From IMG/VR virus record IMGVR_UViG_3300042861_000770, positions 1 to 20,115 of that record: DNA of 20,115 bases, one strand, 5' to 3'. Shown one piece after another: positions 6,461 to 20,115 of the stretch (position 1 is the first letter of the stretch; every line of letters starts with the position of its first letter). This DNA comes from a virus. The notes beneath the pieces were generated by a model. That model was given only the letters and a program-made list of their open reading frames with translations, had not been told where the DNA came from and ran no database searches. Position numbers and translations under genes: made by a program.

Positions 6461-6491
6461 AAATCCCACTATTAAGGTGGGATTTTTTTTT
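6461..6491. terminator. Bidirectional terminator between convergent genes
   Basis: AAATCCCAC (6461-6469) and GTGGGATTT (6477-6485) form a perfect 9-bp stem with a 7-nt loop. A T-run follows on the plus strand and a T-rich tract (complement of AAAACG) on the minus strand. It serves both the gene ending at 6455 and the glutaredoxin gene ending at 6490. Confidence 0.85.
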
Positions 6492-6777
6492 AGTTAATTA
6501 TAAATGATTTAATAATCTCAAAACCTTCGTTAATGTCGTCAAAATCACGATCTGGTGCAAACAACTCTGTTAATGGTTCTTCAGTTTCTGGATCCTCAAT
6601 TAACATAAATGCTGGTACATAATCATTTTCAGTAATATTAACAAACATATTATATTCTTCTTCGTATTCGTCAATATCTCTATCAACAAACTGGATATTT
6701 GATTTATCCAACATTTCTTTTAGTTCAACACAAAAAGGACAACTTTTCATTGTGAACAATACAACCGCTTTATCCAT
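6490..6777 (-). CDS. Glutaredoxin
   Basis: This 95-aa glutaredoxin-fold protein has the active site C-P-F-C at residues 13-16, after a beta strand (A-V-V-L-F-T-M-K). The cis-proline is in Y-V-P-A (P55), followed by a strand and a C-terminal helix. Members reduce disulfides or glutathionylated proteins in the cytoplasm; phage versions often feed ribonucleotide reductase. The segment between strands is acidic (D-E-Y-E-E-E-Y) and longer than in short bacterial glutaredoxins. It is translationally coupled to thioredoxin (8-nt overlap). No ribonucleotide reductase is in the window, so the partner is unknown. Confidence 0.9.
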   Translation of the reverse strand: MDKAVVLFTMKSCPFCVELKEMLDKSNIQFVDRDIDEYEEEYNMFVNITENDYVPAFMLIEDPETEEPLTELFAPDRDFDDINEGFEIIKSFIIN

Positions 6778-7084
6778 TTATCAATGTGTTTATCATATCG
6801 TTTAATTGGGTTTCTGATTGCACACCAACTTTTGTATCAATGACCTCACCAGCATTAAACATTTTTATTGTTGGTACACTCCTAACACCTAATGACATCG
6901 CGATTTCTCTGTTTAAATCAACATCAAGTGTATACATTTGAACGTCGGTTGTATTATCGTTTGCCACTTTTTCAAAAATTGGTTTTAACATTTTACACGG
7001 ACCACACCACTGTGCGCCTAACTTCAGAATTATTTTCTCACCTTTATTAATTTTTTCTTGTAATTCTACACTACTAATTTCCAT
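6770..7084 (-). CDS. trxA: Thioredoxin
   Basis: This 104-aa classic thioredoxin has W-C-G-P-C-K at residues 26-31, the central Y-T-L-D-V-D strand, cis-Pro71 in R-S-V-P-T-I, and a terminal helix. It has no signal peptide, so it acts as a cytoplasmic disulfide reductase. Phage thioredoxins can support ribonucleotide reductase or, as host Trx does in T7, act as polymerase processivity factors; the sequence does not tell which applies. It overlaps the unknown gene upstream by 11 nt and glutaredoxin downstream by 8 nt. Confidence 0.95.
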   Translation of the reverse strand: MEISSVELQEKINKGEKIILKLGAQWCGPCKMLKPIFEKVANDNTTDVQMYTLDVDLNREIAMSLGVRSVPTIKMFNAGEVIDTKVGVQSETQLNDMINTLING

Positions 7085-7470: not shown

Positions 7471-7581
7471 TCAATAATTGTTTTTGTGTTTTTGTTTACG
7501 AGTGTATTGTTTTTTACTCTTGTAAACAATTGGTCTTGTCGCTGACCATATCTCCTGCATTGTAATTTCAATTGTTTTCAT
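7471..7581 (-). CDS. 36-aa basic peptide with KSKK-Y-RK tail
   Basis: A short frame begins M-K-T-I-E-I-T-M-Q-E-I-W and ends K-S-K-K-Q-Y-T-R-K-Q-K-H-K-N-N-Y. The W-x(7)-V-Y-K-S-K-K-x-Y-x-R-K pattern recalls a very small phage hypothetical family with a basic tail. The stop is followed at once by a good leftward terminator, which argues for real expression. The strongly basic C-terminus would suit nucleic acid or ribosome binding, but this is a guess. Confidence 0.65.
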   Translation of the reverse strand: MKTIEITMQEIWSATRPIVYKSKKQYTRKQKHKNNY

Positions 7582-7742
7582 CTTATTTTTTTATAGGTTA
7601 ATAACTAATTCTGTGCTAAGATAATACTTTTTTTTAAATATTGATATAAATGTGAAAAAAATTATTAAAAAAATTTTAAAAGAGAAAATTAAAAGGTCTT
7701 AATAATTATATGATTGGTAATTGTTGTTAGTATGGGGTTTGA

Positions 7743-7774
7743 AATAAAACAAAAGGCGAAAAATAAATTTCGCC
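7743..7774 (-). terminator. Leftward terminator of candidate RNA
   Basis: GGCGAAA (7755-7761) and TTTCGCC (7768-7774) form a 7-bp stem with a 6-nt loop. On the minus strand it is followed by TTTTGTTTTATTT. It defines the 3' end of the candidate RNA. Confidence 0.75.
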
Positions 7775-7947
7775 CTCTAAACTCATTCTCGTAGAGTATG
7801 TTCGCCTGTTAAGCACTTACAGGAGAGCTTACGATTACCACCCTTAGATGTATTCGGGGTATCGCCCCTCGTTTTCAATCGCAATGGTACTTTCTAGGTA
7901 ACCATTAGTTTTTTTTTGGGAAAACCATAAAACCTCAATCATTTAAC
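7745..7947 (-). ncRNA. Candidate structured RNA, about 200 nt, unknown class
   Basis: This lies in a 413-nt gap without a credible protein gene. Reading leftward from a near-perfect host promoter, the stems are: ACCATT/AATGGT (7901-7906 with 7883-7888), a domain closed by GCGATT/AATCGT (7882-7877 with 7836-7831) that encloses GGGG-cgata-CCCC (7868-7856), CCTGT/ACAGG (7823-7805), CTCTA/TAGAG (7796-7775), and a final GGCGAAA/TTTCGCC terminator. The domain-closing stem needs a G-U pair that exists only in the minus-strand RNA. GC content is visibly higher than in the flanks. It does not match tRNA, tmRNA, RNase P or SRP RNA as I know them. The remainder of the gap (7582-7744, 7983-7994) is AT-rich with no clear feature. 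Confidence 0.6.
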
Positions 7948-7951
7948 TATA

Positions 7952-7982
7952 CAAAGGTATAAATATTTTCTTAATATCCAAA
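7952..7982 (-). promoter_or_regulatory. Bacteroidota-type promoter for candidate RNA
   Basis: On the minus strand TTTG (7982-7979) and TACCTTTG (7959-7952) are separated by exactly 19 nt, a full match to TTTG-N19-TAnnTTTG. The start of transcription is expected near 7945-7947. The -33 box lies 12 nt past the stop of the upstream gene. Confidence 0.7.
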
Positions 7983-10342: not shown

Positions 10343-10504
10343 ATGGAAACGAAAGAAGCAACAAAAGTCGGGTGTAGTGCCTGTAAATCAAATAAAGGTG
10401 TTAAACAGACTCAGAATTTTTTATTTTGGTTTGGCGGCATTATGTTCGCCTTTGCAATATATGGTGTTATATCATTTATCTATGACATAATTAATTTATT
10501 TTAA
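10343..10504 (+). CDS. 53-aa small Cys-motif membrane protein
   Basis: The N-terminal cytoplasmic-type segment has G-C-S-A-C-K-S-N-K-G at residues 10-19. One hydrophobic segment follows (about 25-47, F-L-F-W-F-G-G-I-M-F-A-F-A-I-Y), then a short tail. C-x-x-C may bind metal or be redox active. The G-C-x-x-C-K-x-N-K-G block mirrors the start of the 44-aa protein at 3413. It stands alone on the plus strand behind a TATTTATATTTT motif (10328-10339), and its stop overlaps the dnaJ stop by 3-4 nt in convergent orientation. Confidence 0.75.
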   Translation: METKEATKVGCSACKSNKGVKQTQNFLFWFGGIMFAFAIYGVISFIYDIINLF

Positions 10505-11436
10505 GTTTTTTCATACTTTAAATATTGATTTATAAATAAATCACCAACACCATTATATTTAAATCCCTTACCTTTTACTCTTAACGGTTTGGATGTGTCA
10601 ATATTTTTTGGGAAATTGATTTTCATTGTTCCGTCAGGGTGTGGTATTTCAAAAGATTCCTCATTAAAATCATTAATATTAAAGTATTTATTATATACTA
10701 AATTATTGTCGTACTTATCAAAGTCATTTTCGGTTTGTAAGTTAACCTTAATTATTAAATCACCATACAAACCTTCATTAAAATCACCAACACCTTTCAT
10801 TCTTAAAAATTGCCCATTATCAATACCGTGTGGTATTTTTACCTCAACTTTTTTTGTTTCATTTTTTGTACCATTTCCTAAACATTCATTACATTTATTT
10901 GTCAATGTGTAACCTCGTCCAGAACAATTGTTACACATCATAGAAACAATTTGTATAAACATACCACTACCCATCTGTTGTAAAATCTGTCCTTGTCCTG
11001 AGCAAGTTTGACAAATTTGTCTTTCACCACCTTTACCATCACAAGGTTCACATTTAATTTTCCGATTAAACTCAAATTGTTTTTCTTTTGATTGGAAAGA
11101 ATCTAACACTGTAATATCAACTGCGATTGTTTTTGTGTGAACTCTATGTTCTTGTGATTCGTGACCTCTGTGCATATTTCTAAAGGCAGCTCTGAACGCT
11201 TCACCATATTGACCTTTTATTCCACTGAAAGGGTTTTTTCGTTCAAAATCGTATTTCTTACGACTTTCCTCATTACCAATAGCGTCGTAAGCAATTGATA
11301 TGTTTTTAAAAATTTCCTCATCACCACCTTTATCTGGATGATTTTCTTTTGCTAACTTTCTATACGCTTTTTTTATGTCATCTTGTGTTGCGTCTTCTGA
11401 AACACCTAGAATAGTGTAATAATTGTCAGTATTCAT
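10501..11436 (-). CDS. dnaJ: DnaJ (Hsp40) co-chaperone, no G/F linker
   Basis: This 311-aa class I-type J protein has its J domain at residues 4-65 with H-P-D at 33-35 (H-P-D-K-G-G), which stimulates DnaK ATPase. Four C-x-x-C-x-G-x-G repeats follow at C129, C142, C168 and C182 and bind two zincs, then a client-binding beta domain. The Gly/Phe-rich linker typical of cellular DnaJ is almost absent: about 60 charged residues with little glycine separate J and zinc domains. At 311 aa it is clearly shorter than the usual 370-380. No dnaK or grpE is in the window, so it probably recruits host DnaK for phage protein folding or assembly. Confidence 0.95.
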   Translation of the reverse strand: MNTDNYYTILGVSEDATQDDIKKAYRKLAKENHPDKGGDEEIFKNISIAYDAIGNEESRKKYDFERKNPFSGIKGQYGEAFRAAFRNMHRGHESQEHRVHTKTIAVDITVLDSFQSKEKQFEFNRKIKCEPCDGKGGERQICQTCSGQGQILQQMGSGMFIQIVSMMCNNCSGRGYTLTNKCNECLGNGTKNETKKVEVKIPHGIDNGQFLRMKGVGDFNEGLYGDLIIKVNLQTENDFDKYDNNLVYNKYFNINDFNEESFEIPHPDGTMKINFPKNIDTSKPLRVKGKGFKYNGVGDLFINQYLKYEKT

Positions 11437-18849: not shown

Positions 18850-19272
18850 ATGTCACTACTTAGAGAATCAATTAAAAAACATTTAATTCTTGAAAAGAAA
18901 ATAGCCCAAGTTGTCTCAAATCTTGAGGTTTCATTTAATTTTGAGGTTGATAGGAGGAGTCATGCTTTTGATAGATCTACAAGACCAGAACTTGATGGAA
19001 CAGATTATAATCAGAACCCTATTGAAAATAAAGAAATTAAAGAACTTATTTCACTAGTTAAGGGTGATATTGCCGAAAAAATTATTAATAGAGAAATTTT
19101 TAACAAAAAACCATTTGTTGTTAAATCAGTTGAACGGGAATTAGCGTTAGCGATAAACCCTATACATATTGGGGGTACTTATTGGAGATTAGAAATTTCA
19201 ACTGTATTTAGGGAATCACTTTCAAATCCATTTAGAGTTGGTGATAATCAAGTTGTAATTTGGGTTGTTTAA
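18850..19272 (+). CDS. 140-aa CTS-bearing protein, HxxxR motif, possible nuclease fold
   Basis: The N-terminus (M-S-L-L-R-E-S-I-K-K-H-L-I-L-E, cleavage-type I-L-E at 13-15) is a capsid-targeting-like helix. After it come a strand F-N-F-E-V, then S-H-A-F-D-R-S-T-R-P-E (H38-x3-R42-x2-R45-P46), a helix, and strands A-L-A-I-N and W-R-L-E-I-S-T-V-F-R. The H-x3-R start plus antiparallel strands ending in T-V-F-R recalls BrnT/RelE-like or phage-effector nucleases, but this is weak. The next plus-strand protein has the same CTS-like helix and an H-x3-R-x2-R-P motif. Its stop codon lies inside the stem of the antisense RNA candidate. Confidence 0.75.
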   Translation: MSLLRESIKKHLILEKKIAQVVSNLEVSFNFEVDRRSHAFDRSTRPELDGTDYNQNPIENKEIKELISLVKGDIAEKIINREIFNKKPFVVKSVERELALAINPIHIGGTYWRLEISTVFRESLSNPFRVGDNQVVIWVV

Positions 19273-19485: not shown

Positions 19486-19517
19486 CAAATTTAACACTTT
19501 ATTTTAGATAAAACAAC
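19486..19517 (-). promoter_or_regulatory. Bacteroidota-type promoter for candidate RNA
   Basis: On the minus strand GTTG (19517-19514) is followed after 20 nt by TAAATTTG (19493-19486). It has the full TAnnTTTG box and continues TAT, as the promoter of the other candidate RNA does (TTTGTAT in both). Transcription should start near 19480. Confidence 0.55.
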
Positions 19518-19603: not shown

Positions 19604-20115
19604 ATGTTAAGAGATATTATTAAAAAAATATTGAGTGAGGAAGTTATGTCCATTGATAAATTCACAATCGTAGAGATTGACCTACCGGACTTGTTTCTTG
19701 AAAGCATTTTAAATGAAGGTCACTCAACTGTGGTCGTAAGTAAAACGCTTATGGACAATTTAAAAAGTTACGTTAAAAGTAAATATAATTGGCCACCAGG
19801 TGTTAACGATTTGTGGTGTAGTGATATTAGAGAAAAAAAAGATCAAAATGATGATGTCATAAAAATTTCTTGTTCTAAAAAATTTACAATAAACGTTTCT
19901 TATCACTGGGCTCAGAGACTTTTTAGACCTGATGAACCAGAACACCAACCAGGTGGTCGTCTATCTCATTTAAATGTGTTGTATCCTGATATTTACGAAG
20001 GGTTAAAACTTTTTTTTGATTACAAAGATTCAATTAATGAGTATATTGCAAAAACAACCAACTGGTCATCACCAGAAACAAAAAAATTTTTACTAACTTT
20101 TGGTGATTATCAAGA
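19604..20115 (+). CDS. CTS-bearing protein with HxxxR motif, truncated by window end
   Basis: The frame is open for 170 codons to the window end. It begins M-L-R-D-I-I-K-K-I-L-S-E (L-x-E at 10-12), a compact example of the capsid-targeting-like helix. The body has D-L-P-D-L-F-L-E-S-I-L-N-E-G-H-S, then F-T-I-N-V-S-Y-H-W-A-Q-R-L-F-R-P-D-E, an H-x3-R-x2-R-P block like S-H-A-F-D-R-S-T-R-P-E in the preceding protein, followed by a helix. Two cysteines lie between. It could be a diverged paralog of the preceding gene or share only a motif. The C-terminus is missing. Confidence 0.75.
   Translation, partial: MLRDIIKKILSEEVMSIDKFTIVEIDLPDLFLESILNEGHSTVVVSKTLMDNLKSYVKSKYNWPPGVNDLWCSDIREKKDQNDDVIKISCSKKFTINVSYHWAQRLFRPDEPEHQPGGRLSHLNVLYPDIYEGLKLFFDYKDSINEYIAKTTNWSSPETKKFLLTFGDYQ

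Follow-up and report, generated by a model that had tools for sequence, protein, structure and literature searches.

A structured RNA family of Bacteroidota jumbo phages linked to a convergently encoded protein

The window, the whole stretch of DNA analysed here, is a 20,115-bp IMG/VR record that carries a structured RNA element on its minus strand at positions 7982–7745. Comparison with relatives places this RNA in a previously undescribed family carried by large marine phages, and the family is very probably genuine. It represents a new, well-supported structured RNA family in jumbo phages of Bacteroidota and is tied to a new protein family.

A promoter-led structured RNA and its family

The initial annotation, made from the sequence alone, had described a leftward TTTG-N19-TAnnTTTG promoter, a rho-independent terminator and a GC-richer, protein-free segment encoding a minus-strand structured RNA of about 200 nt that fits no known class. 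All of these claims held. The promoter (TTTG-N19-TACCTTTG; 7982–7952, minus strand) is of the Bacteroidota type. Its motif and spacing are shared with nearly all homologues, upstream of which TTTG-N18-20-TA(T/C)CTTTG was found again, and the first 54 nt of the aligned promoter stretch are 100% identical between L002 and L003. Only two such promoter matches occur in the 20 kb, compared with 0.47 expected from shuffling. Counted from its probable transcription start, a position deduced from the promoter, through the last nucleotide of the conserved core, the RNA spans 7945–7803 (minus strand). A terminator scan identified an intrinsic terminator with a 12-pair stem (7779–7750, minus strand) and a T-rich tail; terminator-like sites number five in the 1-kb region against 0.5 expected. 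The G+C content is 41–47% inside 7750–7899 and 15–30% in most flanking windows, and no ORF of ≥50 aa covers the RNA.

The folding energy of the window RNA is weak (z of −1.28 for the claimed strand, −2.16 for the opposite one), and minimum free energy by itself would not have proved it. The RNA is accepted as real because of comparative evidence, namely covariation in 14 aligned core sequences with two-sided changes in 22 of the 25 base pairs. Homologues without compensatory changes, or an ORF conserved across the segment, would have refuted the annotated RNA; the opposite was found, with abundant compensatory changes and no conserved ORF. The strand had been argued from a G-U pair, and wobble pairs in the homologues agree with the claimed (minus) strand.

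The predicted fold of the RNA core is a three-way junction that stacks onto a pseudoknot of the H type. The layout consists of P1, GAAAA(N)GA, hairpin P2, (G/A)AAUA, hairpin P3, GGU and P1', followed directly by the pseudoknot (S1-L1-S2-L2-S1'-S2') and CG, and the core includes conserved unpaired bases. In the window, the conserved core (7883–7803, minus strand) is matched by covariance models R1 (E = 2e-13) and R2 (E = 4.6e-12), both of which include the window sequence among their members. Its elements, all on the minus strand, are P1 CGAUU/AAUCG (7881–7877/7836–7832), GAAAA (7876–7872), P2 GGGG/CCCC (7868–7865/7859–7856), P3 CAUC/GGUG (7850–7847/7842–7839), pseudoknot stem S1 UAAGC/GCUUA (7831–7827/7814–7810) and pseudoknot stem S2 CCUGU/ACAGG (7823–7819/7809–7805). 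The pseudoknot, in which the GCUUA loop pairs with UAAGC, had been overlooked by the initial annotation.

Covariation across the 14 distinct core sequences, which come from jumbo-phage contigs and one Flavobacteriales metagenome-assembled genome (MAG), supports this layout. Standard pairs occupy 96.4% of pair cells, compared with 73.8 ± 1.5% after shuffling and 32–46% with slid partners. Both pseudoknot stems cross and covary, and S2 is paired in 100% of cells with all 5 of its 5 pairs varying on both sides. For example, L251 has AGCU/AGCU in S1 and CCCAU/AUGGG in S2, and its tandem copy has AGUU/AACU and CCCGU/ACGGG. A ten-sequence set gave the same outcome. The core sequences were aligned manually to match the structure, and the alignment is therefore biased towards it, but each ungapped row was verified as present in its source, and sliding the partners abolishes the signal. 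In the most distant members (L152, L176 and L179) the junction is kept, and AGGA/UCCU and GUUAGG/CCUAAC pairings are possible by eye.

Further elements surround the core. The 5' domain (7936–7907, minus strand), assigned by eye and without statistical scoring, has a stem GGUUUU/AAAACU and a weak second helix. In homologues this domain reads by eye as an H-type pseudoknot (AUGG/CCAU, UUGG/CCAA, AGGG/CCCU, AAGG/CCUU, UGGU/ACCA), which has no score because the aligner broke register. A pre-core hairpin AUGGU/ACCAU (7905–7884, minus strand) is replaced in homologues by other complementary stems, CUGAC/GUCAG and CGGAA/UUCUG. The loop UACGAGA of a 3' hairpin ACUC/GAGU (7797–7781, minus strand) recurs in type A relatives. 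In types A and B, the 5' pseudoknot and hairpin can be made out, as can the 3' hairpin with its CGAGA loop, again by eye and unscored.

The closest relative of the window is L002, in a 296-kb contig, with 97% identity over the neighbouring 646-aa protein; the window therefore derives from a jumbo phage. After the promoter, L002, L003 and L004 carry a different RNA that shares just a short motif with the window RNA, and a search of viral contigs with this motif retrieved L054, a distant member within a tRNA array. The first family model contained five members, with the variable P2 loop padded with N to hold register, and retrieved five further copies at E below 1e-4 from 49 records, including a second copy in the phage of L002. 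Later rounds added L208, L190, L136, L134, L176, L152, L179, L251–L254 and G458:198987, and two tandem RNA copies in a Flavobacteriales MAG contig also joined the family. Many DNA-pattern matches proved to be protein-coding and were removed, either on visual inspection or with the covariance model. Each locus holds one full-length RNA, or at most two complete RNAs, which either have their own terminators (L251–L253) or lie in tandem (L119).

At the Rfam gathering threshold the window had no match, and L002, L009 and L054 gave tRNAs only. Permissive Rfam scans (the window to E ≤ 10; also L119 and L126) returned nothing believable for the RNA, and ARAGORN found no tRNA or tmRNA match in the window RNA. 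Direct nucleotide similarity searches in phages and plasmids gave only promoter-like or chance matches, and the RNA is thus absent from annotated phage records at that sensitivity. The huge phages LR745206 and LR756502 gave no match at E ≤ 0.01. A housekeeping RNA of Flavobacteriales was ruled out, as the RNA occurs in only one MAG, both among 399 genomes of the order and among 240 of the family. A riboswitch or leader of the downstream gene was also ruled out: the RNA is closed by a terminator of its own, and the gene that follows either varies or is oriented towards the RNA.

The convergent partner protein

In most members, an opposite-strand ORF of 140–223 aa lies behind the terminator and mostly starts with M(K/R)xLIRxILxEE. 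This gene in relatives, and its relic in the window, had been overlooked by the initial annotation. ORF families i, ii and iii align and share invariant H97, R101, R104, E128 and G129. In 63 whole records, including records of 257–296 kb, all 16 strong protein matches (E < 1e-20) are convergent with an RNA core located 55–137 nt away; these matches collapse to about nine distinguishable lineages. Weaker protein matches in the same records cover little beyond the N-terminal part. This count is biased by loci first found via the RNA, and its unbiased part is four loci found through the protein. A protein-only search of viral contigs with family ii gave 10 loci, six already known and four new (36–40% identity). 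The RNA faces the ORF in all four new loci (E of 1e-8 to 1e-9), in forms (UUAGAAUGA) beyond the reach of the DNA patterns used; three of these loci are near relatives of one another.

Besides this linkage, comparison shows joint occurrence of RNA and protein at two genomic positions. Type C RNA accompanies ORF i at position 1 in L002 and L009 and at position 2 in L128, and position 2 in other phages is occupied by type A RNA with ORF ii. The RNA and protein identity matrices for eight pairs are correlated (Spearman 0.81, permutation p about 0.001), to which shared descent contributes. Some RNAs face other ORFs, iv in L125 and v in L152, L176 and L179, for which a relationship to the main family is not established: ORF v has only the leader in common with it, and ORF iv gives a weak alignment at the H-x3-R-x2-R motif. 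A functional pairing of the RNA with the convergent protein is likely.

Pfam, PHROGs, PADLOC, NCBIfam and PDB sequences, searched with the partner and neighbour proteins, gave no match that names a function for the partner. With the AlphaFold model of ORF ii (pLDDT 81, pTM 0.80), only the archaeal RelE toxin 1wmi was matched in the PDB at high probability, and this match is weak (E 0.04, prob 0.90, TM 0.55 by target). A RelE/BECR-type RNase had been guessed from the H-x3-R-x2-R motif ahead of the structure search, which adds some weight. Because the ORF i model (pLDDT 74.5) did not reproduce the match, the predicted RelE-fold kinship remains a possible lead only.

Solo RNAs, one-sided loss and the putative role of the RNA

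The window phage retains the RNA but no longer has the protein gene. The relic of the partner gene is 16 codons long, VKKIIKKILKEKIKRS followed by two stops (7652–7702, plus strand), and aligns with the start of the intact L002 ORF (MKKIIKKILREE...). An internal deletion in the ORF of L134 leaves MKKIIKTYNPLN, with the RNA present and its core cut by the contig start; in L003, codon 40 of the ORF is a stop and the RNA is present. Comparison thus shows three cases of protein loss with the RNA kept (the window, L134/G449 and L003) and zero of the reverse, and no intact superfamily ORF without the RNA was found among the 63 records. This asymmetry is suggestive only, since there are just three losses, all in close relatives of one another.

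Solo RNAs also occur elsewhere. One lies in G047 (L127 1–13000) between tRNA-Leu and tRNA-Met of a 22-tRNA array, and another in a tRNA array of G458. The Flavobacteriales MAG contig (L132, 11.8 kb) has two RNA copies beside hsdMSR-like type I restriction genes, a WYL-like regulator and a DUF262-like protein, names that were read from translations without family search. No partner ORF of the family was found in this MAG genome. In L008, L011 and L012, position 1 is an empty site, where the promoter leads straight into a 36-aa small ORF without any cassette. In the window, this basic small ORF (MKTIEITMQEIW...SKKQYTRKQKHKNNY; 7471–7581, minus strand) borders the cassette. Small basic ORFs ending in SKKxYxRKxKHK border the cassette at several positions and in the MAG (examples are the window, L176 and L119) and lie on both flanks in L208. 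They have a weak Pfam match to DUF7230 and could possibly serve as a recombination anchor.

Our best explanation is that the RNA is an antidote for a phage effector, a reading that is as likely to be wrong as right, being inferred without expression, binding or toxicity data. The standalone structured phage RNA would pair functionally with the protein encoded convergently beside it, and would act as an antitoxin or immunity RNA that neutralises the phage effector in a manner similar to type III toxin-antitoxin systems. In the window phage, the orphan RNA would shield the infection from this effector when it comes from other phages. A neutralising RNA predicts tight linkage, joint occurrence and one-sided loss, because an effector without its RNA would not be kept and an RNA without its effector would be. 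Binding of RNA to protein, toxicity of the protein and the immunity role are all inferred. Against the antidote reading, the RNA is one large fold and not a set of short repeats, and the two genes are convergent with separate promoters. A bolder and no more than possible version is a mobile weapon-and-antidote cassette of jumbo phages. In this version, a virion-carried toxic enzyme with the leader would be held in check by the opposite-strand pseudoknotted RNA, and solo RNAs, spreading through phage tRNA arrays and the genomes of hosts, would confer immunity to rival phages. Two short genes are enough for a direct test of the function. Should the RNA prove to be an antidote, the toxin-antitoxin logic of protein and RNA would also cover a novel RNA fold, a novel protein family and convergently arranged genes, and the solo RNAs would suggest that large phages compete within a single host.

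Type III toxin-antitoxin systems (ToxIN, CptIN, TenpIN/AbiQ) consist of a pseudoknotted ncRNA and one adjacent protein gene, separated by an intrinsic terminator (PMC5086642), and the window RNA family likewise has a predicted H-type pseudoknot, an adjoining protein gene and a terminator between the two. However, in place of tandem 34–50-nt repeats it has a single RNA of about 200 nt, built from a three-way junction plus one or two pseudoknots. Type III systems form a bicistronic co-directional operon in which one promoter serves both genes and the toxin lies downstream of the RNA, whereas here RNA and protein have separate promoters and all 16 strong partners are convergent. The partner matches no known toxin family, whereas known systems use ToxN-like proteins. 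As the co-direction, repeat and ToxN-like protein criteria are not met, the pair is excluded from type III, and it is inferred to work like these systems without being one. In the AbiF system, the phage-borne ncRNA RCd22 neutralises the adjacent protein by direct binding, in cis and in trans (PMC12373285). The window family is also a phage-borne ncRNA beside a protein gene, with neutralisation by binding only inferred, but the window RNA has no Rfam match and the partner no Abi_2 match. Phage PhiTE escapes ToxIN with an RNA that mimics ToxI (PMC3475682). An antidote-like RNA without its toxin is, by analogy, the role proposed for the solo copies; this mimicry is untested, and both the RNA and the protein differ from those of PhiTE. 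With RelE/BECR-fold mRNA interferases the partner shares the weak 1wmi fold match of ORF ii and the H-x3-R-x2-R motif, but RelE toxins are neutralised by proteins, and the match is weak and absent for ORF i. GOLLD and ROOL are also structured phage RNAs of unknown role. They are known from tRNA arrays, as are solo copies of the window family, but are much longer than its roughly 200 nt, and the window RNA matches no Rfam family.

Several other explanations were considered. The RNA could be a working cofactor of an RNA-protein effector, such as an RNA-directed nuclease or an injected particle, that needs the RNA for activity. In its favour are the close association of RNA and protein, which also change together, the large conserved fold with conserved unpaired bases and an arginine-rich protein motif, but it is unlikely, as it does not explain the RNA persisting after protein loss (the window and L134) or alone in tRNA arrays and a bacterium. 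Alternatively, the RNA could act alone on a host or phage target as a decoy or regulator, with the convergent ORFs as unrelated cargo sharing the terminator and insertion site. The solo copies favour this, as do the several ORF families in the slot (i/ii/iii, iv and v), of which v resembles the main family in its leader peptide alone. This is also unlikely: one protein superfamily is strongly found only beside the RNA in whole records, and hitch-hiking leaves the match between RNA and protein subtypes unexplained. Type I-like control, in which the RNA limits the convergent gene by pairing with it in antisense or by colliding transcription at the terminator they share, fits the convergent order and the 55–137 nt between RNA core and ORF. 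It is very unlikely, as the conserved region that covaries lies outside the ORF, antisense control needs no pseudoknotted three-way junction, and solo copies have no ORF to pair with. Also very unlikely is a virion RNA that is co-packaged with the leader-bearing protein or aids its loading, with a logic like that of packaging RNA: the M(K/R)xLIRxILxEE leader, which we take to be a head-targeting signal by analogy with T4-like phages, is also on other proteins of these phages (weak N-terminal matches), but this function of the leader is only inferred and the solo RNA in the bacterial MAG does not fit.

Other features of the window and its relatives

A second promoter-led structured non-coding stretch, RNA X, is located at 19490–19260 (minus strand) of the window and faces a 140-aa ORF (18850–19272, plus strand) that contains the sequence SHAFDRSTRP. 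The 3' 131 nt of RNA X are 97.7% identical to a stretch behind the type A RNA of L125. RNA X may possibly represent another RNA family arranged in the same way. At L125 7066–7310 (G001), the loop of the type A terminator is interrupted, and the RNA continues into the 3' half of RNA X, which could be a recombination of two RNA genes. An intact-looking copy of ORF ii is found at 19604–20113 (plus strand) of the window, cut by the contig end; its RNA is inferred to fall just past the window.

One to three tandem genes reading as C5-type DNA methyltransferases were observed at L125 4349–6947, L126 6808–7719 and L129 8445–9278. They lie ahead of the type A RNA and behind a sigma-70-like gene, and their copy number and type vary between close phages. 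The window also carries phage-borne thioredoxin, glutaredoxin, DnaJ-like chaperone and DUF192 genes (6490–7084, 10501–11436 and 196–543).
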